Positions 20,601-35,399 of a DNA stretch of 52,691 nt are shown one piece after another. The stretch spans positions 1 through 52,691 of the forward strand of contig NHBO02000016.1 of assembly GCA_002167845.2 (NCBI GenBank), written 5' to 3'. The notes under the pieces are model-generated. The model saw only the letters and a list, made by a program, of their open reading frames with translations. It was not told the origin of the DNA and ran no database searches. The DNA is from Phycisphaera sp. TMED9. GTDB taxonomy: Bacteria > Planctomycetota > Phycisphaerae > Phycisphaerales > SM1A02. The position numbers and the translations under genes are program-made. Numbering within the stretch: position 1 is the stretch's first letter; the number at the start of each line of letters is the position of its first letter.

Positions 20601-23600
20601 AACGAGGCGGGCGTGGTGACCTGGACCGAATCGGATGTGACCCGACTTGCGGCCTTCATCGTCACCACCAGAGACATCGATGCGATCCGATCGGAATTGG
20701 CCGTATCACTGCCCCCGTGGCTGGTCCCCACGGTCATCGCGGCCGTCCCCGAGATTCCTCGAAATCGAAATGGAAAAATCGACCGGGTGGCGCTTCGGGA
20801 ACGAGCAGCGAGTTGGGGGAACGAGAGCAACGGTTCGGAGTCGGCACTCGATGCGCAGATGCGCGCGAGACTGGCGGAACTTGGAGTACCACCATCAACC
20901 TCGTTCCATGCCGATGTCCCACTGGTGGAGCAAGGCCTCGACAGTCTTGGTGCGATTCGCGTGCAGATTCGAGCGAGAGAGGAATACCAGTCGAGTATCC
21001 CCATCGACCAGATTCTCCGTGCGACACCGGCCGAGTTCCTACAGCGCGTCGAGGTGACCTCAGGCCGGGTCGGTCGAGTCCAGGCGGTCTCGGACGATTC
21101 CGGTCGTCCAGTCGACTTGGAAGGCGCTTCGCCCGTTCGAGGGTCTCTCTGGGAGCCTCTGGATCCCCTGGTGCGTGATCTCCTGTTCGAGGACGCCATC
21201 TCGGCGCCAGGGAGTTATCACCTTGCCTGGCGAATCACCGGGCCGATCTCGATGGATGTCGAGGCCGTCAAACGGCGAGTCGAGAACATGCGATCGCACT
21301 GGGCGACGTTGCGAACTTGTCGGCATCCAAACCTGGGTTCTCGAGTAGCGAAAGCTGCGGAATTGGATCCAGTGGTGGTCGAGGTCTATTCCCACGAACC
21401 TCAGTCCCGAGAGCTCGAGCATCTTCTGCGGCATCCACTGGATCTCCGGGGAGGCGAGTGTTTCAGGTGCGCCACCTGGATCGAAGCTGGACGACGGGTC
21501 ACGCTGTTGGTGTTTCACCATGTCGCGGTGGACGGGCGACTCGCGGAGCAGATCATCCGGGGAACTTTCGTCGATGAAGAAGCGGCACGGTCTCGCCCGG
21601 ATTCAGGTGGAGGGCTGAAGATCCTCTCCGATGCGGAAGACTGGTGGGTCAACAAGGTCAAACTCGAGTTGCAAGGTGACCCGCTTCCCCAGATTCCGAT
21701 CCACGAGTCCGGTGATTCTGAAATCACGTTGACCACCTCTCTTGATGGACTCGACACCCTCAAAGAGGCCACTCGTCTTTCGATCGCCGAATGCGGCAGC
21801 CCGATGGCGGTGAGCACGCTTGCCTGGGCGCTGCTTCTGGGCCGTTCTTCCGGAAAGTCGCGAGTCGTGGTAGGTGTTCCGTTCGCGAGCGAGTCCGGTG
21901 ATGGCGGATTGGGCGTCAGCCTGCTTCCGATCGTCGTTCCGGTTGGTGACAGCATTCCGATGTCGGCAGCGATCGCCGCCACGGCGGAGATGATCGTCGG
22001 AGGCATGGAACATCGTCAGGCTGCGATCGGGCCGATCATCCGTCGCCTTGATCCGAATCGGACCCACGTTCGGCCGCCGCTCGACGGCGTGATCACGCAG
22101 GACGACCTCCATCGATCTTATGAAGAGATCGACGTCCGATGGCAGTCGATCGGGCGAGGGCCTTTTCAGGCGACGTTGGTGATCCCGAGTGCCGGATCGT
22201 CGAATTCGCCGGTGGGTCTGGAGGCCGAACCATCGCTTCTCGACGGTGAAACCGGTGACTCGTTTCTTTCCAGATATCTCGTGATCCTGAAGCAGATCAG
22301 TACCGCGTTGTCGAGAGGAGACTCGGGTCTCTTGCTCGGTGCCGTTCAAGAATTGAGCCCTGAGTCGAGGGGCAGAATCAAAACGTTTGAAGAGGGAGAT
22401 CATTTTGATTCCACGTATCAGTCGGTGACCGAGCGGTTTGATGATCAGGTCCGGCTCGCGGGAGACGCCGTCGCCGTCATCGAAGCTGATCGATCGTTCA
22501 CCTATGAGGAGATCAGCCGTTGGAGTCGGAGCATCGCGGGGCAACTCGTCGCGGCTGGCCTCGCTCCTGGCGATTCGGTGGCGTTGACCGGATCCAGGAG
22601 TGCAGCCACGATCGCGGCGATGCTGGGCACCGCCAGAGCAGGCGGCTGTTTCGTACCGATCGAGTCGAATCTTCCACCTGATCGCATCAACGCACAACTC
22701 GCGTGCGCCCGGCCACGCTTCGCGATCGGCCCGGACGCGGGGCAGTTTCCGTCCTGCAACGTGGAAGCCTGGATCGATCCCGGCTCCGATGAGGGCAAGT
22801 CCCATGCGGCGGCTTTCTCGTCCGAAGTCGGGCCCAATTCCCCTCTCTACTCGATGTTCACTTCCGGAACGACCGGGGAGCCTCGCGGTGCGGTGATTCC
22901 CCATCGAGCGGTCTTGCGATTGGTCGACGACGCCTGGTTTCTTCCGAACGAGCCGGGATTCAAGATGTTCCATGCGGCGCCGCTGGCGTTCGATGCTTCC
23001 ACATTGGAAATCTGGTGGACGATCTTGAACGGCGGATCGATCGTCTGCTGGGAAGGAGTCGGGGCCGATCTTCAAGGAATGGCGGATCGAATCCGGCGTG
23101 AGCAAGTACGTGGGGCATGGATCACCGCCGCGCTCTTTCATGCGGCCGTCGACCAATTCCCGCTTCTGTTCGAGCCCCTTTCGGTCGTTCTCACCGGTGG
23201 AGACGTCGTCTCCGCGGATCATGTTCGCCGGATTCAAGAGCGATTCCCGGATCTCGTCGTGGTCAATGGTTACGGCCCGACGGAGAACACGGTCTTCACG
23301 GCCTGTGAGGTGATCAGTGCGGGGTCATTGGAGAAACAGAAGTCGATTCGAATCGGTCGGCCGATTCGTGGAACCCGAATACGAATTCTCGACGCCAGAG
23401 GGCACCAGGTTCCGCTCGGCCGATTCGGTGAACTGGTGGCCGAGGGCGATGGCGTCGGTCTGGGGTACCTCGATTCGGTCGCGGCGATTTCACTGAGCGG
23501 TGGATTTCAGAGCGATGGTTCCAAGGGCGCTCTCTACCGCACCGGCGATCGCGCACGCTGGTCTCCGGACGGGCGAATTGAATTCGCGGGCCGGCTCGAC

Positions 23601-24917
23601 CACCAGGTCAAGATTTCCGGGCGACGGATCGAGCTTTCCGCAATCGATGACGAACTGCGAAGAATCGCCTCCATCAAGGATGCGGCAGCGAGCATCATCG
23701 AGGCGCCTGATCGCCCCCGTCGGCTCGGCGCCGTGGTTGTCTCCGGAGGTGATCGGGGCTTTGATGTCGATGCGATTCGCACGACTTTGTCACATCGGCT
23801 CCCGGCGTGGGAGGTTCCCACGGAGATTTTCGGTGTGGAGCGGATCCCCATGACGCGCAACGGGAAGATCGATCGGGCCGAGGTCTCGCGGCTGCTCGAG
23901 GCGGCTTCGACCGACTCGTCAGTTCGTTCCTCCGCTCGGTCGGAGGCATCCTCCGACGAGGTGGTCCAGATCATCATCGAGGCCGTCGAGGAGATCACCG
24001 GCCAGGTGATCAAGGATCCATCTCGAACGCTGTCGCAACTGGGTGTCGATTCGATCGAACTGCTCCGATTGGCGATCAGATTGGAAGAACGGCTGGCCCG
24101 TCCGATTTCGCTTCCGGATGTGATGGATGGCTCGAACATCCGGATGATCGCGTCCAAGATTCGATCGGACATCAAGCGGGAATCGCAACCTCTGATCAGC
24201 CTTTACAGTCCGGACTGCGTGACCAGCCGGGCCCTCTTCTGCATCCCCGGTGTCGGCGGGACCGTCTTCAGCTTCCAGTCGCTTCTCGACGGTTTGCCGG
24301 AGACGCTTCCCGTCTTCGGCCTTCCCTATCCTGGCGCCGGTGGGATGCGGAAGCCTCTCCGGCGAATCGAGGACCTGGCAACGGGCTTCGGAGAGATCGT
24401 CCGCCGAACGGGAATGAAGCGAATCTCCATCGCGGGGTATTCACTGGGTGGATTCGTCGGTTTCGAGCTGGCACGTATTCTGCAGCGAGAGAATTTCGAG
24501 GTGCGTTTGCTCGTGGTGGATGCGCCGGTGTCTTCTCTTCCGCGACGTCAATGGTCAGGCGGCAGACTGGTCGGCAAGGCCGAACTCCGGGTTCGCCTTC
24601 AAAACGTGCTGCCCGAAGCCTTGCACGGCATCGTGAATTCAAAGCGTCAGAGCAGCATGGCGTCCCTTCGACGGGTCATCGCGTCGAGTTTCGCCGCATG
24701 GAGGGCGTACGATCCGACGCCGCTCGACATCGACCTGACGCTGGTGCGATCCGCCGACAGTCTCAAGACGGAAGCGACGTCCGACCATTCACTGGGATGG
24801 GGAGAACTCGTCCGGTCGATCCAGATCAAGACGGTGCCGGGTGGCCATCTGGACGTCTTCCGTGCCGGATCCATGGATCTGGCACGGGCCATCGAAGACA
24901 TGATCGATCGATCTTGA
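17700..24917 (+). CDS. Multimodular NRPS: PCP-C-A-PCP-C-A-PCP-TE
   Basis: 2405 residues. Domains in order: PCP (~18-85, S47 in RAGGSS); condensation (~115-530, FHHAAVDD with H254, D258); adenylation (~545-1035, FTSGSTGEPKA 697-707, GFDVAFQE, NQYGPAE, YRTGD, NGKIDR); PCP (~1045-1115, S1082 in GLDSLG); condensation (~1145-1545, FHHVAVDG with H1274, D1278); adenylation (~1570-2065, FTSGTTGEPRG, FDASTLE, NGYGPTE, YRTGD, NGKIDR); PCP (~2085-2155, S2118 in LGVDSI); type I thioesterase (~2170-2400, GYSLGG with S2248, likely D2274 and H2383). All key motifs look intact; the first C domain has HHxxxDD in place of HHxxxDG. Together with the upstream PCP-A protein this could build a tripeptide released by the TE. 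No MbtH protein, phosphopantetheinyl transferase, exporter or tailoring enzyme is visible nearby. Confidence 0.92.
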   Translation: MNEHDRESNADGSSGMSPEEHLAALWVQLFGVSHEDEPVLVRAGGSSFDLVEIQLRMLKATGLSIALETLPLPATFAGLLGALQASGESPRSVASTTTGTASSPTGASQRPTKNRVTLTGPASPTQYAQWILERANPRNPGNMIPFLVMLPEDVAWGDLHAAILDLVEAHPALRTRVGLESNDSTANLLQTVPPAPRRVPLESRSVVDFTQSSLQPIIDGLMESPPSVEQGRVFRSVGLNKEGRLSAVLFLFHHAAVDDPSLRILEADLRGALTGIEPSPEIQTQLAWSADVDSASVARESEEWWAGQLGGVPEGLEILDGIAGSTSRRIRCHLDASEKARLESRAKAIGVSRAAVAMHTLGQALLSSGFASGPRFSVGVPASLRDSHELERTVGMFLTTLPVAIEPDRGLLHSGNALRSAWRHRRVPYQRILEAAKSDRSTGRSPWLDVMIGIIEHDRGLLSTDGAQELFSGGGAAPIFATVFFETDSVEIHLDLDVTLISESAGDRLMSQWSERLRWLEDVPLEHSQISGPESPETEEIQSVSQMVLASATRRPEAIAVENEDGDECTYEELVLDAERIATAIRACDVPAGATVAIFASPGIGYSKALLGVTFARGGPMPITPDLPPARIQQMVEVVDPAIVIAVDPIAPEVRQTLGDTPVVDLHEVLGDASVNVVIPSEDELQTCLEDPCFVLFTSGSTGEPKAVRGSQASLVNLVAAECDRCEGEIVSKTGQFAPLGFDVAFQEIFSTWAAGGTLCPMPLEIRADPEGIDAFLRRKNITRTFLPPLMLRALAAACTSGFPPSLREVLCIGEQLRIDDAVRSAARPSASIRIINQYGPAEAPQVTSLDLGTDPDEWPDRPTIGPPIRRVQIRIEDDAGNLTSFGTPGEVMIGGVSVGLGYANDPGNMRFTEIDGIRWYRTGDLGRLLPDGDIEYLGRVDHQVKVAGHRVEPGEVEMALAAMSEINEAGVVTWTESDVTRLAAFIVTTRDIDAIRSELAVSLPPWLVPTVIAAVPEIPRNRNGKIDRVALRERAASWGNESNGSESALDAQMRARLAELGVPPSTSFHADVPLVEQGLDSLGAIRVQIRAREEYQSSIPIDQILRATPAEFLQRVEVTSGRVGRVQAVSDDSGRPVDLEGASPVRGSLWEPLDPLVRDLLFEDAISAPGSYHLAWRITGPISMDVEAVKRRVENMRSHWATLRTCRHPNLGSRVAKAAELDPVVVEVYSHEPQSRELEHLLRHPLDLRGGECFRCATWIEAGRRVTLLVFHHVAVDGRLAEQIIRGTFVDEEAARSRPDSGGGLKILSDAEDWWVNKVKLELQGDPLPQIPIHESGDSEITLTTSLDGLDTLKEATRLSIAECGSPMAVSTLAWALLLGRSSGKSRVVVGVPFASESGDGGLGVSLLPIVVPVGDSIPMSAAIAATAEMIVGGMEHRQAAIGPIIRRLDPNRTHVRPPLDGVITQDDLHRSYEEIDVRWQSIGRGPFQATLVIPSAGSSNSPVGLEAEPSLLDGETGDSFLSRYLVILKQISTALSRGDSGLLLGAVQELSPESRGRIKTFEEGDHFDSTYQSVTERFDDQVRLAGDAVAVIEADRSFTYEEISRWSRSIAGQLVAAGLAPGDSVALTGSRSAATIAAMLGTARAGGCFVPIESNLPPDRINAQLACARPRFAIGPDAGQFPSCNVEAWIDPGSDEGKSHAAAFSSEVGPNSPLYSMFTSGTTGEPRGAVIPHRAVLRLVDDAWFLPNEPGFKMFHAAPLAFDASTLEIWWTILNGGSIVCWEGVGADLQGMADRIRREQVRGAWITAALFHAAVDQFPLLFEPLSVVLTGGDVVSADHVRRIQERFPDLVVVNGYGPTENTVFTACEVISAGSLEKQKSIRIGRPIRGTRIRILDARGHQVPLGRFGELVAEGDGVGLGYLDSVAAISLSGGFQSDGSKGALYRTGDRARWSPDGRIEFAGRLDHQVKISGRRIELSAIDDELRRIASIKDAAASIIEAPDRPRRLGAVVVSGGDRGFDVDAIRTTLSHRLPAWEVPTEIFGVERIPMTRNGKIDRAEVSRLLEAASTDSSVRSSARSEASSDEVVQIIIEAVEEITGQVIKDPSRTLSQLGVDSIELLRLAIRLEERLARPISLPDVMDGSNIRMIASKIRSDIKRESQPLISLYSPDCVTSRALFCIPGVGGTVFSFQSLLDGLPETLPVFGLPYPGAGGMRKPLRRIEDLATGFGEIVRRTGMKRISIAGYSLGGFVGFELARILQRENFEVRLLVVDAPVSSLPRRQWSGGRLVGKAELRVRLQNVLPEALHGIVNSKRQSSMASLRRVIASSFAAWRAYDPTPLDIDLTLVRSADSLKTEATSDHSLGWGELVRSIQIKTVPGGHLDVFRAGSMDLARAIEDMIDRS

Positions 24918-24965: not shown

Positions 24966-25592
24966 TCAGGATCGAAACTTGGCCGGAAGTTCATAGGGGC
25001 CCGGCTTGGTCACGTGAGCCCCACAATTGCCGCATTTGTTCTTCGAGTCGTCGGCCCAGAAGTCTTCCATCGCATCGCGGAAGTGGACGACGATGTCCTT
25101 GCAGTCGAACGCTTGATCATGGACCAGCTCGCCGCAGGATTCGCAGAAGAACATCTGATGCTCGATCTCTCCTTCGGGACGGCGACGTTCAACGACCAAC
25201 CCCAGGGTGTCCGCGGGTCGGCACGGTGCGTGCGGGACGTTGGGCGGAATGAAGAACGTCTCGCCTTCTTTGACGAGGTGATCGACGATGCGGCCGTCCT
25301 CCCAGGTCTTGAGGACGATGTCCCCCTTCAATTGGATGAAGAACTCCTCGCTGTCGACCTTGTGGAAATCGTTCCGAGCGTTGGGGCCCCCGATCACCAT
25401 GGTGAAGAAGTCACGGCCGCTATACAGGTACTTGTTGCCGACGGGTGGTTGAAAGTCCGCGTGGTGCTCGGCCGCCCACTTCATGAGATGGAGCGGGCCG
25501 CTGACCGAGCCGTCGGCTTCGAAGCCGTCTGGTTCGAGTGGCGTGTCGGGGTTGGCGGTGGTGCGTGCGGGGTCGGTCGAGGAGGTCGGCAT
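24966..25592 (-). CDS. nbaC: 3-hydroxyanthranilate 3,4-dioxygenase
   Basis: 208 residues. An Fe(II) cupin dioxygenase that opens the ring of 3-hydroxyanthranilate to ACMS, the substrate of the decarboxylase encoded near 9 kb. The catalytic iron ligands are H77 and E83 (NDFHKVDSEEFF) and H121 (NVPHAP). A rubredoxin-like second metal site uses C150/C153 and C187/C190, as in bacterial and fungal enzymes. A polar ~27-residue N-terminal extension is longer than the ~174-residue Cupriavidus protein as I recall it. It converges on the NRPS (48 bp apart) and is about 15.5 kb from the rest of the kynurenine genes. Confidence 0.94.
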   Translation of the reverse strand: MPTSSTDPARTTANPDTPLEPDGFEADGSVSGPLHLMKWAAEHHADFQPPVGNKYLYSGRDFFTMVIGGPNARNDFHKVDSEEFFIQLKGDIVLKTWEDGRIVDHLVKEGETFFIPPNVPHAPCRPADTLGLVVERRRPEGEIEHQMFFCESCGELVHDQAFDCKDIVVHFRDAMEDFWADDSKNKCGNCGAHVTKPGPYELPAKFRS

Positions 25593-25728
25593 GGATCGTC
25601 TCCGAAGACAGGCGACTCCCGAGGGCTGATGACTTCAGGCCTCCGGAAAGTCGCCTCATTCCAATGGTTCAGGGTAGCGACCACGGTGGGTTGGACGCGA
25701 GTCCGATTCATCGCGTACCGTCGCATTG

Positions 25729-26262
25729 ATGAACCAGCGGGATTCCACCATTTCGAGCCCACCAGTACCGGTCGACGCCGAGGTCGCGGCGGCTGGACCT
25801 CTCGAGACGGCGTGGACGGCATGGCCCGCGGCGGAGCGACCGGCCAGGACGTGTGTGCTGCTGATCTTCATCGCGGCTCTGGCGGTTCTCGCGGGCATGA
25901 TCGGAGGCGATGTCCTTTGGAGCGTCACGGCGGTGGTACTGCTCTTCTCGACTCTGAATCGCTGGTTTCTTCCGACCAGTTACCGCGTGAACGGCGAGCG
26001 GCTTGAAGCCGCGTATCCACTGCGGCGGCGATCCGTCCGCTGGGTGGAAGCCCGGAGGCTGGCGATCGATCCGGCAGGCGGATGGCTCTCGGTTCGGCGA
26101 GGTGGATCCCGTTTCGATGTGCGGTCGGGCCTTGATCTCTACTGGGGGCGTCAACCGGAGGACACCATGAATGCGGTGGCCGAGGCGGCGAAGTCCACGC
26201 TTGCGGAGGGGACACCCATCAAAATATTCGATCACCGACGAAAAGGCGGGGGGAAGAGATGA
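25729..26262 (+). CDS. Two-helix membrane protein with PH-like domain
   Basis: 177 residues from ATG 25729 (a TTG directly before it is less likely). A polar N-terminus precedes two adjacent hydrophobic segments (CVLLIFIAALAVLAGMIGG and VLWSVTAVVLLFSTL, about 43-76). Then comes SYRVNGERLEAAYPLRRRSVRWVEARRLAID and GGWLSVRRGG, the pattern of bacterial membrane PH (bPH2/YdbT-like) proteins. Such domains sit at the cytoplasmic face with unknown ligands. The next gene starts in an ATGA overlap with its stop, so the two work as a pair. Family assignment is moderate. Confidence 0.6.
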   Translation: MNQRDSTISSPPVPVDAEVAAAGPLETAWTAWPAAERPARTCVLLIFIAALAVLAGMIGGDVLWSVTAVVLLFSTLNRWFLPTSYRVNGERLEAAYPLRRRSVRWVEARRLAIDPAGGWLSVRRGGSRFDVRSGLDLYWGRQPEDTMNAVAEAAKSTLAEGTPIKIFDHRRKGGGKR

Positions 26263-26720
26263 CCGACGAGCGGTCCGTGTTCAAGCGGTTGAAGCATGCC
26301 TTCGCGATCGAAGATGCCGCGGCCTTCCAGCCGACGGAACGAGAGCATGAGACGGCGGAGAAACTCTGTCGAGAGGTGGTTCGGCGACGGATGACCGTCC
26401 CCGCCTTGATGTTGCTCGAGATGTCCCGGCCGCTGAATTATCTCGGGGCGCAGGCGTTGCACTTCTTCCAGCCGTTCGGCACGGTGCTGGTCGACCCGGG
26501 CGCCTGGGAGACGTTCGCCGGCTTCATCGAGCGGCGGGGGTCGGTCGAGTACCTCTGCCGGTTGATTGAAGATATCGAAGCGGACCGGCCCGAGGCCACG
26601 GAATCGTCGGATGAGGGGTCGCCGTCCGAGTCGGGCGGCACCGAGGACGGAGAATCGAGTGATTCAGGTGCCGTCACCGGTGAATCGAACTCCGAGCCGA
26701 CCTCCGACACCACCGACTGA
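26259..26720 (+). CDS. Hypothetical protein with acidic low-complexity tail
   Basis: 153 residues. The first ~108 residues are a compact, mostly helical domain (FKRLKHAFAIED, EKLCREVVRRRM, ALMLLEMSRPLNYLGAQALHFFQPF). PLNYLGAQALHFFQPF is a pattern I associate with small uncharacterised proteins but cannot name. The last ~45 residues are a Ser/Glu/Asp/Thr-rich disordered tail. A strong purine-rich ribosome site (GGGGGAAGAG) precedes the ATG, which overlaps the stop of the PH-like gene. The pairing suggests a membrane-associated complex with the PH-like protein (inference). Confidence 0.55.
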   Translation: MTDERSVFKRLKHAFAIEDAAAFQPTEREHETAEKLCREVVRRRMTVPALMLLEMSRPLNYLGAQALHFFQPFGTVLVDPGAWETFAGFIERRGSVEYLCRLIEDIEADRPEATESSDEGSPSESGGTEDGESSDSGAVTGESNSEPTSDTTD

Positions 26721-26835: not shown

Positions 26836-28704
26836 ATGCATTCCGAACCAGAACCTCCCGCTCTCGATCCCGACCGAATCAAGGTCATCGTCGCCACCGA
26901 TTGCGGCTCGACGACGACCAAGGCCATCATGATCGAGGAGGTCGACGGGGCATACCGTCAGACCTTCCGTGGAGAGGCGCCGACCACCGTGGAGGAGCCC
27001 TTCGCGGACGTGACGGTGGGTGTCGTCAATTCGGTCACCGAACTTCAGGAACTCTCCGGCCGCCGATTGATCGCGGACGACGGAACGATCATTCGACGCA
27101 CGTCGATCGATGATGCGGACGGATGTGACATCTACATCTCCACCTCTTCGGCCGGTGGCGGGCTTCAGATGATGGTGGCCGGCGTGGTTCGGGAGATGAC
27201 CGCGGCGAGTGCGAAACGGGCGGCACTCGGCGCTGGTGCGATCGTGATGGATGTCATCGCCAGCAATGACAAGCGACGCCCACACGAGCAGATTCAGAGA
27301 ATCAGGGAGTTACGGCCGGACATGGTGCTGCTCTCCGGCGGGACCGATGGCGGCAACTCGACCCAGGTCGTTCAACTGGCCGAACTGGTCGCACCAGCGA
27401 AACCCCGACCGCGATTCGGCGGCGCGTATCAACTGCCGATCATCTTCGCGGGGAACTCCGACGCGCGGACCGAGATCGAACGGGTCTTCACCGTCGAGGA
27501 CGACGCGACGGGCGGATTCGACCTCTCGGTCGTCGAGAACCTGCGTCCCACGCTGGAACAGGAGAATCTCGGGCCGGCCCGTGACTGCATTCACGATGTC
27601 TTTCTCGAGCACGTGATGGCGCACGCGCCCGGTTACGACAAGTTGATCGACTGGACCAACGCACCCATCATGCCCACCCCGGGCGCGGTGGGAGACATCC
27701 TCCAGACCATCGCCCGGACACAGGGAATCAACGCGGTCGGTGTCGACATCGGCGGTGCCACCACCGACGTCTTCAGCGTCTTCGACGGCACGTTCAATCG
27801 AACGGTGAGCGCCAATCTGGGCATGAGTTATTCGATTTCGAACGTCTGTGCGGAAGCGGGCATGGATCAGATCCTCCGTTGGGTCCATCTGGACATGGAG
27901 GAGCGAGAGCTTCGAAACCGGGTCAAGAACAAGATGATCCGTCCGACCACGATTCCTCAAAGCGCGGAGGCCCTGGTCTTCGAGCAGGCGGTCGCCCGCG
28001 AAGCACTGCGACTCGCCTATCAGCAGCACAAGGAATTCGCGACCACGCTCAAGGGCGTGCAGCAGCAGCGGACGGTCGGTGACGTCTTCAGCCAGGAAGT
28101 CGGTGGCTCGAGCATCGTCGACGGAATGACGCTCGATCTGCTCGTCGCTTCCGGTGGTGTGTTGAGCCATGCTCCAAGAATGCAGCAGACGGCGATGATG
28201 CTGATCGACGCCTTCGAGCCCGAAGGTTTCACGACGCTGGCGAAGGACTCGATCTTCATGATGCCTCACCTCGGCGTACTCAGCTCGGTTCACGAGCGGG
28301 CGGCGATGGAGGTCTTCGAGAAGGACTGCCTGGTGGTGCTCGGCACCTGCATCGCGGCGAAGGGCCAGGGCAAGCCCGGCAAGCCCTGTTTCTCCTATCG
28401 CATGAGTGGTGGTTCCACCGCCAGCGGTGATCTCGCGTACGGGGATCTCGTCGTCGTTCCCTTGGCTGCCGAAGAGACGGCGGAAGTCGAAGTGACGCCG
28501 GCTCGCGGCTTCGATCTCGGAAACGGACCCGGCAAACCGATCACCCGAACCGCGAAGGGTGGGCCGGCGGGAATCATCCTTGATGCGCGAGGCAGGCGGC
28601 TCGAACTTCCGGAGGACCCGGTGGAGCGTCGGCAGGCGGTGACTCGAATGGTGGAATCGACCGGGATGTACGACGATCTGGAGGTCGCGCCCAACGGCGC
28701 GTGA
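26836..28704 (+). CDS. ASKHA-fold ATPase of the MutL/GlmL-like family
   Basis: 622 residues. The two phosphate-binding motifs of the actin/Hsp70/sugar-kinase fold are clear: VATDCGSTTTKA (19-30) and GVDIGGATTDVF (302-313). GAGAIVMDVIASND, MVLLSGGTDGG and LLVASGGVLSHAP follow the glutamate mutase accessory protein GlmL/MutL pattern, and databases would probably call it 'glutamate mutase L'. It is about 150 residues longer than the ~460-residue GlmL I recall, the extra part being mostly C-terminal. Neither glutamate mutase subunit is nearby. It heads a six-gene run in which all later genes are separated by 12 bp or less, so its client is more likely the membrane proteins encoded downstream. Function unknown. 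Confidence 0.72.
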   Translation: MHSEPEPPALDPDRIKVIVATDCGSTTTKAIMIEEVDGAYRQTFRGEAPTTVEEPFADVTVGVVNSVTELQELSGRRLIADDGTIIRRTSIDDADGCDIYISTSSAGGGLQMMVAGVVREMTAASAKRAALGAGAIVMDVIASNDKRRPHEQIQRIRELRPDMVLLSGGTDGGNSTQVVQLAELVAPAKPRPRFGGAYQLPIIFAGNSDARTEIERVFTVEDDATGGFDLSVVENLRPTLEQENLGPARDCIHDVFLEHVMAHAPGYDKLIDWTNAPIMPTPGAVGDILQTIARTQGINAVGVDIGGATTDVFSVFDGTFNRTVSANLGMSYSISNVCAEAGMDQILRWVHLDMEERELRNRVKNKMIRPTTIPQSAEALVFEQAVAREALRLAYQQHKEFATTLKGVQQQRTVGDVFSQEVGGSSIVDGMTLDLLVASGGVLSHAPRMQQTAMMLIDAFEPEGFTTLAKDSIFMMPHLGVLSSVHERAAMEVFEKDCLVVLGTCIAAKGQGKPGKPCFSYRMSGGSTASGDLAYGDLVVVPLAAEETAEVEVTPARGFDLGNGPGKPITRTAKGGPAGIILDARGRRLELPEDPVERRQAVTRMVESTGMYDDLEVAPNGA

Positions 28705-28712
28705 GAAGACCC

Positions 28713-29846
28713 ATGGCCAAGGCATATACCCCCGGACTCAAGGTCGCGGCTCGTACGACTCACCGCGCACGTCGGCTCCTCCCCATTTCGGGTGAGGTCC
28801 GGGTCGCGGTCGGTGACGTCGTCGCCGCCAAGGACGTCGTCGCGGAAACGTTCATGGACGGTGACATCACGCCGATGAACATGGCGAATCGTCTGAGCTG
28901 CCCAGCCGGCGACGTGGCGGGACTCATGCTGAAGCAGATCGGCGAGGCCGTGGAAAAAGGCGAGCCGATCGCGAGAAGCAAGGGGATCTTCGGCGCCTTC
29001 AAGACGGAAGTTCCATCCGACGCGACCGGGACGATCGAACAGGTTTCATCGGTCACGGGTCAGGTCATGGTTCGCGGCGCCGCGATTCCGGTGCAGGTCC
29101 GAGCCTATCTGTCGGGCAAGGTCGTCGAGGTGCTGCCGAAGGAAGGCTGCATCATCGAAAACGACGTGATGTTCGTGCAGGGAATCTTCGGTATCGGCGG
29201 CGAGACCGAAGGCGTCATCCATGTCGCGTGCTCGAGCCATGAGGAAACGCTGGAAGCCGATGCGATCACGCCCGAGATGAAGGGGGCCGTCGTTCTCGGT
29301 GGCGCCCGAATGACGGCGGCGGCGCTTCGGAAGGCGATCGAAGTGGGCGCGGCCGCGGTGGTCTCGGGAGGGCTGGATGATCAGGATCTGAAGGAACTCC
29401 TGGGACGAGACCTCGGTGTCGCGATCACCGGAAGCGAGCAGATCGGCATCACGGTGATCGTGACCGAAGGATTCGGCGACATCGCCATGGCGGAACGAAC
29501 CTGGCGCCTGCTCGCGGATCGAGCCGGTCGGACCGCGAGTGTGAACGGTGCCACCCAGATCCGCGCCGGCGTGATGCGGCCGGAGATCCTGGTGCCGCTC
29601 GAGCCGGGCGAAAACGAGAACGAGGTCGATCCGACGCTGGCCAAAGAGGCGGGGATGCTGGATCTTGGTACAACCGTGCGGGTCATTCGTGATCCGTACT
29701 TCGGACTCCTGGGTGAGGTGGCGTCATTGCCGGCCGAACCCGCGGTCCTCGGGTCGGGCTCCAGAGCCCGTGTCCTCGAGGTCCGATTCCCCGACGGTGC
29801 CACGGCAGTCGTGCCGCGTGCCAACGTCGAACTCATCGAGGGCTGA
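28713..29846 (+). CDS. KOW/barrel-sandwich domain protein
   Basis: 377 residues from ATG 28713; a GTG at 28701 overlapping the ATPase stop (GTGA) would add four. No signal peptide. The N-terminal half has two strand-rich blocks that look like a split lipoyl/biotinyl-type hybrid barrel (GEVRVAVGDVVAAKDVVAE and LSGKVVEVLPKEG), without an obvious modification lysine. The middle (~180-280) has alternating helix and strand with GAVVLGGARMTAAALRKAIE and GAAAVVSGGLDD. The last ~70 residues contain a KOW-like strand turn, FGLLGEVASLP. Its tight position between the ATPase and membrane genes implies a cytosolic adaptor role. No known function. Confidence 0.55.
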   Translation: MAKAYTPGLKVAARTTHRARRLLPISGEVRVAVGDVVAAKDVVAETFMDGDITPMNMANRLSCPAGDVAGLMLKQIGEAVEKGEPIARSKGIFGAFKTEVPSDATGTIEQVSSVTGQVMVRGAAIPVQVRAYLSGKVVEVLPKEGCIIENDVMFVQGIFGIGGETEGVIHVACSSHEETLEADAITPEMKGAVVLGGARMTAAALRKAIEVGAAAVVSGGLDDQDLKELLGRDLGVAITGSEQIGITVIVTEGFGDIAMAERTWRLLADRAGRTASVNGATQIRAGVMRPEILVPLEPGENENEVDPTLAKEAGMLDLGTTVRVIRDPYFGLLGEVASLPAEPAVLGSGSRARVLEVRFPDGATAVVPRANVELIEG

Positions 29847-29849
29847 CGC

Positions 29850-31256
29850 ATGAAGAGACCAAGCTCACTTCTTCAGACGAACTCACTTCTCGCGATGCTC
29901 ACCGTCATGGTGATGATCTCGGGCGCGTTCGCGGCGCCACCGGCGCCGACCGACGTCGTCGCGGAGGATCTGCCGGCGGATGGTGGTGGGGCGGCGGTCG
30001 TCACCTGGACGATTCCGGAGGGAGTCGACGGACTGGAAGGATTCCAGGTCTGGAGAACCGAGACCGTTTCGGAGTCCACCTCCAGGGTGGGCAACGAACG
30101 TGGCGCGGCGCTCCTGGCCATTCAGAACCAGGCGTACGCCAACGAATATCAGCGACTCGTCGACGTCGAGGGCGTGGCGCCCGAGGACGCGTCGATGCAG
30201 GCGCGGGCCGTGGCTCGCCAGGCGGTCATCGACCAGCGAACCTCGGTGACACCTACCGAGACCGGGCCGCATGGTCGGTTCTGGGTGCTGGTCGACACGG
30301 TTTCGGACGATACCGACCGCCTTCAAGTCGGGAAGTTGAGTCCGTCCGACGAATATCGATTCATGGTCTACACGGTCGCCAAGACGTCGGATGGCGGTGT
30401 TGAAAAGAGCGCCGCCTCGGCGGAGAGCGGCATGGTGCTTCCGGTGGCGAGCGGCATCGACGTAAAGAGGCTTCCGCTCTTCTTCATCCTCGCGTTGCTC
30501 TGCGGAGCGGTGTTGTTCTTCATCTACTGGGCGAGAAGCGGACGCCCCATCACCATTCGAAAGATCGCCGGACTCTCCGCGGTCGACGAAGCGGTCGGCC
30601 GGGCGACGGAGATGGGCCGGCCCATCCTCTATGTCCCGGGCATTCAGGACATGGATGACCTGCAGACGGTCGCGGGCATCACGGTGCTCGGAAGAGTCGC
30701 CAAGACGGCGGCCGAATACGACGCCCGCATCGAGGTGCCCACCAGCCGTTCACTGGTGATGAGCGCGGCTCGCGAGACGGTGCACTCGTCGTACCTTGCC
30801 GCCGGTCGGACCGACGCCTACAACCCCGATCTCATCTACTACGTGACCGACGAACAGTTCGGTTACACGGCGTATGCGTCAGGTCTCATCGTTCGAGAGA
30901 AGCCTGCCGCCTGTTTCTACATGGGTTGCTTCTTCGCGGAGAGTCTGATTCTCGCGGAGACCGGCAACTCGGTGGGAGCGATTCAGATCGCGGGTACCGC
31001 GATGCCGAGTCAGCTCCCGTTCTTCGTCGCGGCCTGCGACTACACGCTCATCGGCGAGGAGTTCTTCGCGGCGAGCGCCTATCTCTCCGGTCAACCCGAT
31101 CAGTTGGGAAGTCTGAAGGGACAGGACATGGGCAAGATTATCGTTGGCGCCGTGCTCATCGTCGGTTGTCTCATCGCCACGGCCGCCGTCGTCACGGGGA
31201 GTGAATCCCTGATGCACGCCGTCGACTGGTTCAAGGGATCCGTCCTGAGCGCCTGA
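29850..31256 (+). CDS. Membrane protein with fibronectin III-like ectodomain (DUF6754-like)
   Basis: 468 residues. A signal peptide (MLTVMVMISGAFA, cleavage near residue 28) leads to a fibronectin III-like region (~33-195: PTDVVAEDL, VVTWTIPEGVDGLEGFQVWR, SPSDEYRFMVYTVA). A membrane helix follows (about 208-228, LPLFFILALLCGAVLFFIYW). The ~200-residue cytoplasmic domain begins with ITIRKIAGLSAVDEAVGRATEMGRPILYVPG and contains EKPAACFYMGCFFAESLILAE. A final membrane helix lies near 430-450. I believe this matches DUF6754, from memory and unverified. Its ATG is 3 bp after the previous stop. Confidence 0.6.
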   Translation: MKRPSSLLQTNSLLAMLTVMVMISGAFAAPPAPTDVVAEDLPADGGGAAVVTWTIPEGVDGLEGFQVWRTETVSESTSRVGNERGAALLAIQNQAYANEYQRLVDVEGVAPEDASMQARAVARQAVIDQRTSVTPTETGPHGRFWVLVDTVSDDTDRLQVGKLSPSDEYRFMVYTVAKTSDGGVEKSAASAESGMVLPVASGIDVKRLPLFFILALLCGAVLFFIYWARSGRPITIRKIAGLSAVDEAVGRATEMGRPILYVPGIQDMDDLQTVAGITVLGRVAKTAAEYDARIEVPTSRSLVMSAARETVHSSYLAAGRTDAYNPDLIYYVTDEQFGYTAYASGLIVREKPAACFYMGCFFAESLILAETGNSVGAIQIAGTAMPSQLPFFVAACDYTLIGEEFFAASAYLSGQPDQLGSLKGQDMGKIIVGAVLIVGCLIATAAVVTGSESLMHAVDWFKGSVLSA

Positions 31257-31266
31257 GGAGGCTCAC

Positions 31267-31968
31267 GTGAAACGAATCGTTCCACTCTGGATCACCGCGA
31301 TCGTCGGCCTTGTGCTGATCATCTCGAATTTCCTTCCCGGCACCCGTTCCTGGGGAGAGGAAGCCACGACCTGGTTCGGCATCATTGCCGCGGTGGCCTT
31401 CGTCCTCGGTGGCGGAAGTCTGCTGAAGGTTCATCTCAAGAAGATCTCCGATCGAAACTCGGGATGGGCGTATTCGATGATCGTGCTCGGCACGTTCTCC
31501 GCCACGCTCGCGGTCGGCCTCTTCAAGATCGGCGTCTCGCCGAACCCGGCATTCCCCGACGTGCCTTGGAGCGGTGACGTCCAGGGCCAGGGCACGCCGT
31601 TCTGGTGGGTGTACGAGTACGTCTTCAAGCCATTGACCGCGACGATGTTCGCCATGCTCGCGTTCTACATCGCGTCCGCGGCGTTCCGAGCGTTCCGAGC
31701 CAAGAATTTCGAGGCGGTGCTGCTTCTGGGAACCGCCTTCATCATCCTGCTGGGCCGAACGTTCGCCGGCTACTTCATGACGAGCTGGATTCCGGTCGAC
31801 GGACCGTTCAGCGGACTGCGACTCGAAGAGTTGAGCGTCTACATCATGCAGGTCTTCAACACCGCGGGCAATCGAGCGATCATCATCGGCATCGCCCTCG
31901 GCATCGCCGGCACGAGTCTGAAGATCCTCATGGGTCTCGATCGTTCCTATCTCGGTGGAGGAGACTGA
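31267..31968 (+). CDS. Polytopic membrane protein, about six helices
   Basis: 233 residues starting with GTG, preceded by a strong GAGGAGG site. Six hydrophobic segments are visible: near 5-23, 38-55, 70-92, 125-146, 153-174 and 198-220. The longest polar piece lies between the third and fourth (VSPNPAFPDVPWSGDVQGQG). No catalytic motif or known transporter signature is seen. It stands 10 bp after the FnIII-like gene and 3 bp before the next, clearly within the operon. Probably a membrane scaffold of the same complex (inference). Confidence 0.55.
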   Translation: MKRIVPLWITAIVGLVLIISNFLPGTRSWGEEATTWFGIIAAVAFVLGGGSLLKVHLKKISDRNSGWAYSMIVLGTFSATLAVGLFKIGVSPNPAFPDVPWSGDVQGQGTPFWWVYEYVFKPLTATMFAMLAFYIASAAFRAFRAKNFEAVLLLGTAFIILLGRTFAGYFMTSWIPVDGPFSGLRLEELSVYIMQVFNTAGNRAIIIGIALGIAGTSLKILMGLDRSYLGGGD

Positions 31969-31971
31969 CCC

Positions 31972-33015
31972 ATGAATCTCATCGACCGCATGGCCAATCT
32001 CGATCGACGTTGGATCTTCCTGATGATGGGGCTCGCCGTGGGCATTCCGATCATCGTGATCGGCATCACCGGGAAGACGTTGCCGGAGGAACCCACGCCA
32101 TTGGCGCAGGCCGCCTTCGACGTGCTGGACGACCTCGAGCCGGGATCTCGGATCCTGATGGCGTGGGACTTCGATCCGGCGAGCGAGGGCGAACTCGGCC
32201 CGATGGCGACCTCCTTCATCCGGCAGTGTGCTCAGAAGGGGCATCGGATGTACTTCATCGCCCTCTGGCCGGTCGGGGCGCAGATGATTCGCTCCAGCAC
32301 CAGCCGGGTGATCGGCGGGTACTACCCCGATCTGGTCTACGGCGAAGACTGGGTCGATCTGGGATTCAAGGCGGGAAACGAGGCGGTCATCAAGACGATC
32401 GTCACGGACTTCGCCCAGTACTTCCCGACCGATGCACGGGGCACTTCAGTCGACGCGATCCCCATGATGGAAGGGATTTCCAGTCTGGCGAACTTCGACG
32501 CCATCGTGAACGCCAGTGCGGGATATCCCGGAAGCAAGGAATGGGTGCTCTACGCGGCGACGCCGCTGAAGAAACCGTTGATCGTCGGTTGTACCGGAGT
32601 CCAGGCACCGCAGATGTATCCGTACGTTCCGAATCAGGTCCAGGGTCTGCTTGGAGCGATCAAGGGAGCGGCGGAGTACGAGTCCGTCGTGAACAAGTGG
32701 GTTCGGAGCGAGCAGATGCTCGACGCATTGGAGTCCGGAGGGATCACCGAGCCGGCCTCGAGCGAACTCGCGGCCCGATTCGCCGCGAATCCGTCGGAAG
32801 CATCCACCTGGACGACTGAAGCGGCGGCCGCCGCGATGAGTCCGGAAGCCAAGACGAGGCTCATCGAACTGGCCTCCGCGCCGACGCCCGGAATATTCCT
32901 GGAGGCGCAGCGGAGGATGGGGCCTCAACTCGTGGCCCACCTGTTGATGATCGGATTGATCATCGCCGGCAACGCCATCTTCTTCGCGACTCGACGTCGG
33001 GGAGGTTCCCAGTGA
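31972..33015 (+). CDS. Membrane-anchored protein with a helix at each end
   Basis: 347 residues, with GGAGGAG before the ATG. One membrane helix near residues 13-35 (WIFLMMGLAVGIPIIVIGI), then about 280 soluble residues, then a final helix (LLMIGLIIAGNAIFFA) and a basic end. The soluble part has a Rossmann-like rhythm (SRILMAWDFDPASEGELGPMATSFIRQCAQKGHRMYFIAL; FDAIVNASAGYPGSKEWVLYAATPLKKPLIVGCTG). GVQAPQMYPYVPNQVQGLLGAIKGAAEYE is a distinctive block. No family known to me. The next gene starts in a GTGA overlap with its stop. Confidence 0.55.
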   Translation: MNLIDRMANLDRRWIFLMMGLAVGIPIIVIGITGKTLPEEPTPLAQAAFDVLDDLEPGSRILMAWDFDPASEGELGPMATSFIRQCAQKGHRMYFIALWPVGAQMIRSSTSRVIGGYYPDLVYGEDWVDLGFKAGNEAVIKTIVTDFAQYFPTDARGTSVDAIPMMEGISSLANFDAIVNASAGYPGSKEWVLYAATPLKKPLIVGCTGVQAPQMYPYVPNQVQGLLGAIKGAAEYESVVNKWVRSEQMLDALESGGITEPASSELAARFAANPSEASTWTTEAAAAAMSPEAKTRLIELASAPTPGIFLEAQRRMGPQLVAHLLMIGLIIAGNAIFFATRRRGGSQ

Positions 33016-34433
33016 ATCGCCAGCAACTCACTCTTCTCAGCATCGTGGGGATCTTCGTGATCCTGCTCGTGGCTCGCGCGTTCACCGGCAACGGCTTCGG
33101 GCGAATCTACGTGGAGCGTGGCGATGCCTCGTTCGTCAAGGTCGAAGTACCGGTGCTCGATACGCCGGATGGCGAGGAAGCCGAGGGCAAGGCTGATGGA
33201 GTTCGATGGACCTGGGTCGACGCGTCGTCGGATGAGGCCGTGGACTTCGCGAAAGCGGAGTCCCCTCGCGCCGCCTGGGAGTCGGTCACGCCGGTGTCGC
33301 CTCGCGTGTACTTCGAGGCGACCATCGCGAACGAGGCACTGCAGGCCGCGGCCGAGACCGCGTACGCCGGCGCCATGACCGGAGTCGATCTCGGAACTGC
33401 GCTCGAGACCTGGCGTCTGGCCTTGCTCGAGAAGGCCAATGCGGTCGCGGCGGGGAAGGCTCAGCCCGCGGTCGAAGTGAACTGGGCGGCCCTTCGCACT
33501 GCCGGATTCACGAGAAAGACGTCGATCTCCGCGAAGGCGGGGGGTGATTTCACTGCGTCCCTTGATGCCATCTTCGATGCGGCGCGAGCCACCGGGGAAT
33601 CGGATGCCGAGACCACGTTCGTGGTCGCCGACGGGAGAGGTACGGTCACCACGACCGCGGATGACGTGGTTCCGGCGATCGGCCTGAGTTGGTCTCGCAC
33701 CATCGGTCTCTGGCTCGCCGCGATCTTCACGCTGGCGATCTTCTCGTTCCTCTACAAGGACAATCCGCTCTACAAGACCGCGGAGTCGGTGGTGGTCGGC
33801 GTGTCGGCCGCGTACTGGATGGTCATCGGGCTCTGGGACATGATCGTTCCGAATCTGCTCGGTCAGCTCGCTCCGGGATTCGTTCAGGGGAATCTCATCC
33901 CCGGCCTCGCGGCCTCGGACCCCAACTGGGCCTACCTGGTACCGGCGATCTTCGGCGCCTTGCTGCTCATGCGTCTGGCGCCAAAGGGGCAGTACCTGAG
34001 TCTCTGGACCCTGGCATTCATCGTCGGTACGACGGCGGCCCTCCGCATGGTCGCGTACATCGAAGGCGATTTCCTGAGCCAGATCAATGCCACGATCGCG
34101 CCGCTCTATCAGGAAGTGGTGAACGCGGACGGCACCGTGAACGGATACTCGAGCTTCTGGGCGAGCGTGCGGCAGATCACATTGGTCATCGGCGTGCTCG
34201 CTTGCCTGACGTACTTCTTCTTCTCGGTCGAGCACAAGGGCGCGGTCGGGAAGGTGGCGCGAGTCGGCATCTGGTTCCTGATGATCACCTTCGGTGCGGC
34301 ATTCGGTTTCACCGTCATGGGTCGCATCGCCCTGCTCGCGGCTCGTTTCGAGTTCCTCTTCGACGACTGGCTCTGGCTGATCGATCCGATGAATCAGCGA
34401 TCTGCGGCCGTCGCCGTGAGTTGCCTGTTCTAG
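33012..34433 (+). CDS. Polytopic membrane protein with N-terminal soluble domain
   Basis: 473 residues from GTG 33012, overlapping the previous stop; GGGAGG is well placed before it. One N-terminal helix (LLSIVGIFVILLVARAF), then about 195 polar residues rich in Ala, Thr and Asp. Six to eight membrane helices follow from about residue 232 to 460 (e.g. IGLWLAAIFTLAIFSFLY, LVPAIFGALLLMRLAP, ITLVIGVLACLTYFFFSV). The paired layout of a large extracytoplasmic domain with a polytopic half resembles transport or assembly components, but no signature is recognised. It is the last gene of the six-gene operon and is followed by a strong hairpin. Confidence 0.55.
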   Translation: MNRQQLTLLSIVGIFVILLVARAFTGNGFGRIYVERGDASFVKVEVPVLDTPDGEEAEGKADGVRWTWVDASSDEAVDFAKAESPRAAWESVTPVSPRVYFEATIANEALQAAAETAYAGAMTGVDLGTALETWRLALLEKANAVAAGKAQPAVEVNWAALRTAGFTRKTSISAKAGGDFTASLDAIFDAARATGESDAETTFVVADGRGTVTTTADDVVPAIGLSWSRTIGLWLAAIFTLAIFSFLYKDNPLYKTAESVVVGVSAAYWMVIGLWDMIVPNLLGQLAPGFVQGNLIPGLAASDPNWAYLVPAIFGALLLMRLAPKGQYLSLWTLAFIVGTTAALRMVAYIEGDFLSQINATIAPLYQEVVNADGTVNGYSSFWASVRQITLVIGVLACLTYFFFSVEHKGAVGKVARVGIWFLMITFGAAFGFTVMGRIALLAARFEFLFDDWLWLIDPMNQRSAAVAVSCLF

Positions 34434-34478: not shown

Positions 34479-34510
34479 ACCGCGGCACTTCCATTTGGAG
34501 GTGCCGCGGT
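34479..34510. terminator. 14-bp hairpin after the six-gene operon
   Basis: ACCGCGGCACTTCC pairs with GGAGGTGCCGCGGT around an ATTT loop, with a single G-T mismatch in 14 pairs. It lies 46 bases after the last operon stop. The run AAAAA is on its left, so the classic U-tract would apply to minus-strand transcripts; on the plus strand only the hairpin is present. Still the best terminator candidate for the operon. Confidence 0.65.
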
Positions 34511-34574: not shown

Positions 34575-35399
34575 ATGGGCGATCTGATTCGAGAAGCGGA
34601 ACGAGTGGTCGCGGGGACGCGGGGTGGGCATCGACGTGGGAACGCCCTGAGGGTGCTGCGGCGGTCGGCATCGGGCTCGGAGAGGGAGAAAAGGTCCGGT
34701 GAGCGGTCCCGTTGTCGACCGGTCCCGGGGAGTGCATCAAGGCGTTTTTGGAGCGGTTGCGGTGTTCTGGCCCTTCTCCTCGCGGGTTTGTCGGCGGAGA
34801 GCCGGGCGGACCTGCTCGCGGGTTGGAATTTCAATTCCATCGATGCGACTGCGCCGATGCTCTCGGCGAATGTGGGATTCGGAGAGATCGATCCCGCAGC
34901 CTCGGCTGACGCGATGGAGTTCTTCTCAGGAACGACGATGAACGGTCTCCCGGAATGGCCGGCGGGAGAGTCTCTGGGATTCAGAGGAGCTGATGCGGAA
35001 GGCGGCTCGTTCATCGTCAACGCCTGGCCCGCGCCGGGGCTCGGACTGCCGGCCGATCAACTGACCGCTTCGTTCGCCGCGAAGAGAAGTGCGACCGGGT
35101 GTGACCTCGTCCGAATCGACCAATGGCGAGACGGAGAGTGGTCCGAGGCGGGATTCGCCACGATCGGGACCGAGTGGGAGACCCATCACTTCGGACTGCC
35201 GAGGGTGGAGCCGTTCATCGATGCCATCGCCTTCCGAATCACGATGACCGGATCGACCGGTTCCCAGGGAACCCTTCGATTCGACAATCTGATGCTCCAC
35301 GGAACGTCGGTTCCCGCGCCGGGATCACTGGCGTTGCTCGCACTCGGCGGCGTCATGTCCGCACGGCGTCGGCGTCCTGGCAGCCGTCGCCTCCGCTGA
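34575..35399 (+). CDS. Secreted PEP-CTERM-like protein
   Basis: 274 residues from ATG 34575. A long basic N-terminus of ~55 residues leads to RRFWSGCGVLALLLAGLSAESRA, a signal peptide with a twin arginine; an internal GTG start closer to it is possible. The body (about 80-245) is a beta-rich domain with WNFNSIDAT near its start. The C-terminus has the exosortase-type sorting signal VPAPGSLALLALGGVMSARRRR: motif, membrane helix, basic tail. Such proteins are processed by exosortase/archaeosortase-like enzymes; none is in the window. Function unknown, probably surface-located. Confidence 0.75.
   Translation: MGDLIREAERVVAGTRGGHRRGNALRVLRRSASGSEREKRSGERSRCRPVPGSASRRFWSGCGVLALLLAGLSAESRADLLAGWNFNSIDATAPMLSANVGFGEIDPAASADAMEFFSGTTMNGLPEWPAGESLGFRGADAEGGSFIVNAWPAPGLGLPADQLTASFAAKRSATGCDLVRIDQWRDGEWSEAGFATIGTEWETHHFGLPRVEPFIDAIAFRITMTGSTGSQGTLRFDNLMLHGTSVPAPGSLALLALGGVMSARRRRPGSRRLR

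Follow-up and report, generated by a model that had tools for sequence, protein, structure and literature searches.

A conserved eight-gene operon predicted to encode a MutL/GlmL-type ASKHA ATPase and a duplicable membrane module in Planctomycetota and other bacteria

Background

In the type IV pilus system, PilM, PilN, PilO and PilP are encoded in one operon that combines an ASKHA protein with small inner-membrane proteins. In ECF/ABC transporters with a shared energising module, one ATPase unit serves several membrane modules. MutL/GlmL, the best-known relative of the putative ATPase described here (A), is termed a chaperone for enzyme reactivation (PMC4682846).

The locus described in this study lies on a contig of Phycisphaera sp. 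TMED9 (NHBO02000016.1). The whole stretch of DNA analysed (52,691 nt) is referred to as the window.

Operon structure

The following features were identified in the window (coordinates, strand, description).

P: 25726-26262, +, membrane-anchored bacterial PH-like protein of 178 aa; first gene of the operon, accessory
H: 26259-26720, +, small protein of 153 aa; its ATG overlaps the end of P
A: 26836-28704, +, predicted ASKHA ATPase of 622 aa, MutL/GlmL superfamily (PF13941), with a C-terminal extension of ~120 aa
B: 28701-29846, +, soluble adaptor; probable start ATG at 28713
C: 29850-31256, +, signal/TM segment, optional periplasmic FnIII domain with a helical insert, TM segment, cytosolic Rossmann-like DUF6754, TM segment
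D: 31267-31968, +, polytopic membrane protein of 233 aa with five TM segments; nearly always after C
E: 31972-33015, +, TM segment, periplasmic alpha/beta domain with a conserved D[FY]DP..EL.PM motif, TM segment
F: 33012-34433, +, TM segment, variable periplasmic stretch of ~200 aa, then a conserved polytopic domain
Hairpin: 34480-34509, +, 30 nt, stem of 13-14 bp, -29.6 kcal/mol with flanks, 46 nt past F

The initial annotation had described a unit of six tightly packed genes, A to F (26836-34433). All six reading frames are real, lie on one strand (+) and overlap or are separated by 10 bp at most. As read from the sequence, A stops at 28704 and B probably starts at 28713, which is the most likely start because B homologues begin at MA.AYTPGL. 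The gaps are 3 bp (B-C), 10 bp (C-D) and 3 bp (D-E), and E and F overlap by 4 bp. While a conserved operon does exist, its boundaries had been drawn too narrowly, as P and H belong to it too. Homologues of H and P are found upstream of A or C, P and H overlap (ATGA), and the hairpin follows F. Judged by these features, the operon comprises eight genes in the order P-H-A-B-C-D-E-F, and the conserved unit begins two genes before A. The spacing from H to A is 115 bp, and the opposite-strand gene upstream of P ends at 25592. No classical T-tailed terminator was found after F; the hairpin, which lacks a T run, is a candidate for the end-of-operon terminator.

P matched bPH_6 with an E-value of 0.006, which does not reach the cut-off. 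An HMM search found P homologues in 24 loci, located just 5' of H. Iterative profile searches with H yielded 50 homologues, most of which immediately precede A, or C where A is located elsewhere. They span at least five phyla (Planctomycetota, Neomarinimicrobiota, Zixibacteria, Gemmatimonadota and Riflebacteria), and the alignment revealed a conserved core, PAI..LE..RPLNY.GSQ.M.FF.P...LE.R..IE.LI.RIE.

Directly upstream of the region, a two-module NRPS-like protein of 2405 aa is encoded (17700-24917), with condensation, adenylation and carrier-type motifs and a thioesterase-like C-terminal end; both its type and its motifs were read from the translation only. A cupin resembling 3-hydroxyanthranilate 3,4-dioxygenase (24966-25592, - strand) adjoins the operon. 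The related Phycisphaerae loci L064, L065 and L083 also contain kynureninase- and kynurenine monooxygenase-like genes, a conserved, clade-specific synteny. Right after the hairpin, a weak PEP-CTERM protein (E-value 0.01) was found at 34575-35399, and L065, L088 and L126 have similar genes behind the operon. Neighbouring genes for fatty-acid synthesis, the kynurenine pathway and PPDK are clade-specific. A function could not be derived from them, since they vary by clade and give no hint of a substrate.

Conservation and co-inheritance

A gene order that is not conserved had been named as a possible refutation of an undescribed system. The order is conserved, and not by chance: across more than 130 related loci, adjacent genes on one strand formed the pairs D-E (144), C-D (141), E-F (132), B-C (60), A-B (47), H-A (36), F-C (36) and P-H (22), and reversed pairs occurred 0-1 times. 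The order P-H-A-B-C-D-E-F recurs in Planctomycetota (anammox bacteria included), Zixibacteria, Neomarinimicrobiota, Gemmatimonadota, Riflebacteria and others.

A scan of 84,980 species revealed at least 567 relatives. The best 80 of these include Planctomycetota, Zixibacteria, Neomarinimicrobiota, Gemmatimonadota, Latescibacterota, Cloacimonadota, Stahlbacteria, Riflebacteria, Acidobacteriota, Armatimonadetes, Deltaproteobacteria and a Caldithrix-labelled bin. The MAG titles are as deposited, and some MAGs are possibly mis-binned. The components of the system are co-inherited in about a dozen bacterial phyla.

Of 199 genomes drawn from across the phylum, 50 contain DUF6754; all 14 well-known control genomes lack it. 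Within the family to which the window belongs, 34 of 35 genomes have it, and hence the system is vertically inherited there; families f2, f3 and f4, sampled from the same order, are without it. No relatives of C were found in viral contigs or plasmids, and no relatives of A in phages. Together with the near-complete presence in the family, this led to the rejection of a mobile or phage origin.

B and C occurred together in 45 of the 199 genomes (C alone in five, B alone in three; Fisher p=3e-35). Moreover, B was present in 22 of 23 genomes with C-D-E-F, mostly from other phyla and often far from C-D-E-F. Exactly one A was found in each of 23 positive genomes, and no A above the family cut-off in 12 relatives from the order or class that lack C. 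In an anammox family (f48; hydrazine synthase in seven of eight genomes tested), H-A-B and C-D-E-F are located at two separate loci; H, A and B adjoin one another in anammox genomes (L156-L159). Several genomes of family f30, which is taken to be Planctomycetaceae from the named members Thalassoglobus and Gimesia among the relatives, have scattered genes, each retained once. The split loci of genome G024 lie at 793 kb (A), 294 kb (B-C) and 3526 kb (E). There was one clear exception: an anammox relative (G153, 99% complete) has A and B, with C and E absent. This is either an assembly gap or a real loss, and A-B may have another job too.

The ATPase component A

A matched the Pfam family MutL (PF13941) with 428.5 bits (cut-off 27) over model positions 1-450 of 450, so that its first reading as a MutL/GlmL-like ATPase was borne out. 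It is the most conserved component (mean column identity 68%), without a predicted TM segment (hydropathy). The phosphate-1, phosphate-2 and adenosine motifs are all intact in A. In the homologues, the respective sequences were found in 52 of 55 (DCGSTTTK), 55 of 55 (DIGGATTD) and 55 of 55 (SGG[VI]LSH). On this profile and motif evidence, A belongs to the MutL/GlmL superfamily and keeps the ASKHA ATP-binding motifs, from which ATP hydrolysis is inferred.

An accessory role in glutamate mutase, as for GlmL, was rejected. A remained below the NCBIfam cut-offs (230 vs 475 bits for NF040745, 209 vs 600 for NF040744 and 167 vs 204 for TIGR01319), and glutamate mutase E (PF06368) was found in none of 28 genomes carrying the system or its A gene.

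In the operon, an ASKHA protein precedes bitopic and polytopic membrane proteins that have extracytoplasmic domains. The operon may encode an envelope scaffold or secretion platform comparable to PilM-PilN-PilO-PilP, in which the ASKHA protein is an inner-membrane scaffold and not a motor; the variability of the FnIII/periplasmic parts among homologues would suit this. However, A is hydantoinase/MutL-like, no operon protein has a PilM_2 or PilN/O/P match in Pfam, and the PilM_2 proteins of the host are encoded elsewhere, on other contigs. Pilus, secretin and secretion ATPase domains are missing from the operon as well. A PilM-type scaffold was set aside on these grounds, and a platform of this kind is considered unlikely. 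Anti-phage defence was also rejected: no PADLOC model matched, and the only hit was a 'control protein' match for D (0.025).

The adaptor B and its link to A

B consists of a barrel-sandwich hybrid N-terminus, an alpha/beta middle part and a KOW/SH3-like C-terminus, and has no TM segment (hydropathy). No Pfam or NCBIfam family was matched above the cut-off. Weak KOW and barrel-sandwich similarities were present, in agreement with the initial annotation. Among 26 B homologues, matches were found to Biotin_lipoyl (21, best 3.5e-9), RnfC_N (21, best 1.2e-5), NQRA_N (8, best 9e-5) and KOW (6).

The RnfC_N and NQRA_N matches to the N-terminus raise the question of an ion-translocating or redox complex of the RNF/NQR kind. 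The alignment of B contains no invariant or near-invariant cysteine, and B therefore lacks an Fe-S motif. No flavin or quinone family was found in A-F, and what is held in common is only a generic barrel-sandwich domain, of a type that is widespread. An RNF/NQR-like complex was rejected and is regarded as very improbable.

A and B are a single polypeptide in three Neomarinimicrobiota loci (L067, L069 and L095), and they are fused a second time in the paralogues described below. As these two fusions indicate, A and B are functionally one unit.

The paralogues (A'B'; MutL-like plus B-like, ~825-1000 aa) were found in Cloacimonadota, Zixibacteria and Planctomycetota. The partners and their order are the same as in A-B, but A'B' is located away from C-D-E-F and lacks the KOW end. 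Fused forms were found in L178 (3196-6009), L179 (7844-10825), L180 (7010-9958), L181 (5047-7953), L182 (5275-7749) and L183 (3310-5817), and split forms (~600 + 397 aa) in L184 (3391-6332) and L185 (2001-5017).

In several Zixibacteria, a conserved, secreted and membrane-anchored protein of 256-287 aa is encoded between A and B (L167, 2658-3521; L172, 2668-3495; L141, 5503-6273). It is a possible extra component in those Zixibacteria.

The membrane module C-D-E-F

C matched DUF6754 (PF20539) with 395.9 bits (cut-off 27) and has three TM segments (hydropathy). A weak FnIII match was found in addition. The description of C as an FnIII-bearing membrane protein thus holds for the window; the FnIII domain is optional and absent from many C homologues. 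The AlphaFold2 model had a pLDDT of 84 overall and ~91-98 over residues 211-360, and DUF6754 was modelled with confidence as an alpha/beta sandwich. The mean charge after TM2 was +3.6 in 37 C homologues, and this positive charge places DUF6754 in the cytosol. C396, D397 and GEE 402-404 are invariant in the alignment. A fold search with C returned FnIII matches only.

D, E and F had been annotated as further membrane proteins, and hydropathy predicted five, two and at least five TM segments, respectively. None of the three matched a Pfam or NCBIfam family above the cut-off. The AlphaFold2 model of E (pLDDT 88, pTM 0.82) has an alpha/beta domain between two TM segments, in the opposite orientation to C, with the domain in the periplasm according to positive-inside charges. 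A fold search with E against the PDB gave no match at E<=1e-3. E and F are fused in L125. C/E or D/F as internal duplicates were not supported by profile-profile comparison.

In Zixibacteria, C-D-E-F occurs in two or three tandem copies, usually with one A-B pair nearby. The C tree and the E tree are congruent, each with three clades according to module position, which means that whole modules were duplicated long ago and kept distinct. Gene order and trees show that the membrane module C-D-E-F is duplicated and passed on as a whole, and that one A-B pair serves one to three modules. This pattern is that of one engine for several specialised membrane complexes.

In Zixibacteria, the last F is followed by genes for a conserved basic protein of 101-119 aa and a pyruvate phosphate dikinase-like protein (L077, L097, L103, L111, L115, L116, L125, L130 and L141). 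The C domain of the three Neomarinimicrobiota loci with fused A-B is 66-71% identical to that of the window. This likeness points to horizontal transfer between Planctomycetota and marine Neomarinimicrobiota or to the mis-binning of some MAGs.

A single A-B pair for several modules would also suit the chief rival explanation, in which A-B is a reactivating or assembly chaperone and C-D-E-F a membrane enzyme or sensor that is repaired or loaded with a cofactor. The characterised member of the MutL superfamily, to which A belongs, is termed a reactivation chaperone (PMC4682846), and the conserved Rossmann-like domains of C and E could be catalytic, with the invariant residues of C as candidates. 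Yet no cofactor-binding or catalytic family was found in C-F, D and F have no enzyme match, and A-B is retained as strictly as the membrane genes, which is unusual for an accessory factor. The chaperone explanation remains possible, and support for it is tentative.

The variable ectodomains and the highly conserved cytosolic core would also be expected of a signalling or stress-sensing complex, in which periplasmic E and the C ectodomains sense the state of the envelope and cytosolic A-B reads it. As no output domain, kinase, sigma/anti-sigma factor or DNA-binding gene is consistently found nearby, a sensing role appears improbable.

Proposed function

The conserved system and its shared-engine architecture are strongly supported. 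The initial annotation had considered an ATP-driven membrane complex plausible. This interpretation was upheld and reinforced, and it fits the intact ASKHA motifs, the A-B fusion and the C-D-E-F unit; a role in assembly, repair or transport is unproven. Our main reading is a bipartite, ATP-fuelled envelope machine that actively transports or translocates an envelope substrate yet to be identified. It is inferred, and we assign it a probability of roughly 40%. It rests on the combination of a periplasmic ligand-type domain, a polytopic core, a cytosolic ATPase and a shared engine with interchangeable modules.

In such a transporter or translocase, H-A-B would be the cytosolic engine. A would bind and hydrolyse ATP and B would relay this, hydrolysis itself being inferred. 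The action of A-B would then make the Rossmann-like DUF6754 domain, on the cytosolic side of C, change its conformation; a contact between A-B and C has not been shown. The change in DUF6754 would take the D/F core in the membrane through a cycle to which the periplasmic alpha/beta domain of E is coupled. Paralogues of the C-D-E-F module would differ in their substrate. Several points speak against the transporter or translocase: there is no transporter homology, no substrate was identified, the fold of E had no match, C matched FnIII only, and MutL/GlmL is termed an enzyme-reactivating chaperone, not a pump engine (PMC4682846).

A more far-reaching and doubtful proposal is a new class of primary active transporter or translocase, in which an ASKHA-fold (Hsp70/actin/MutL-type) ATPase would power exchangeable C-D-E-F modules via the cytosolic Rossmann-like domain. 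This class would use the ASKHA fold instead of a P-loop, P-type or rotary ATPase and would be widespread in PVC/FCB-type phyla and anammox bacteria. The architecture is compatible with it and no more; the ATP-coupled transport is inferred.

Significance

The result is a strictly co-inherited membrane ATPase system of seven to eight genes in a dozen or so phyla, with no described counterpart. The system would bring seven uncharacterised families (H, B, C/DUF6754, D, E, F and the A branch of MutL) together in one machine and would add an ATPase fold not normally tied to membrane pumps. The hosts include anammox bacteria and Planctomycetaceae with cultured members, e.g. Thalassoglobus neptunius, which makes the proposal testable.

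No open-access paper was found for DUF6754, PF20539, PF13941 or TIGR01319 (subscription papers and preprints were outside the search). The operon is thus a real system with broad conservation that, relative to the open-access literature and as far as testable, is undescribed.

Comparison with known systems

A match of one of the proteins to a family of known function was the second possible refutation named at the outset, and none applies. A is below every NCBIfam cut-off, in hosts without glutamate mutase, and C is known as a DUF only. No family reached the cut-off for B, D, E, F or H, and profile searches found no relative with a solved structure for any subunit.

With MutL/GlmL (PF13941; NF040745, NF040744, TIGR01319), A shares the ASKHA domain over the full 450-position model. 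It differs in its extra C-terminal domain and its fusion or linkage to B and the membrane module, and its hosts have no glutamate mutase E. The type IV pilus PilMNOP has in common an ASKHA protein with inner-membrane proteins in one operon, but A is not PilM_2-like, PilN/O/P and secretin domains are missing, and the host has separate PilM_2 proteins. The layout with a shared ATPase is like that of ECF/ABC transporters. This is an analogy only, as A is an ASKHA protein and not a P-loop ABC ATPase, and there is no sequence relation. DUF6754 (PF20539), finally, is carried by C as a complete domain. Described until now only as a domain of unknown function, it is placed by C in an eight-gene system with D, E, F, A, B and H.
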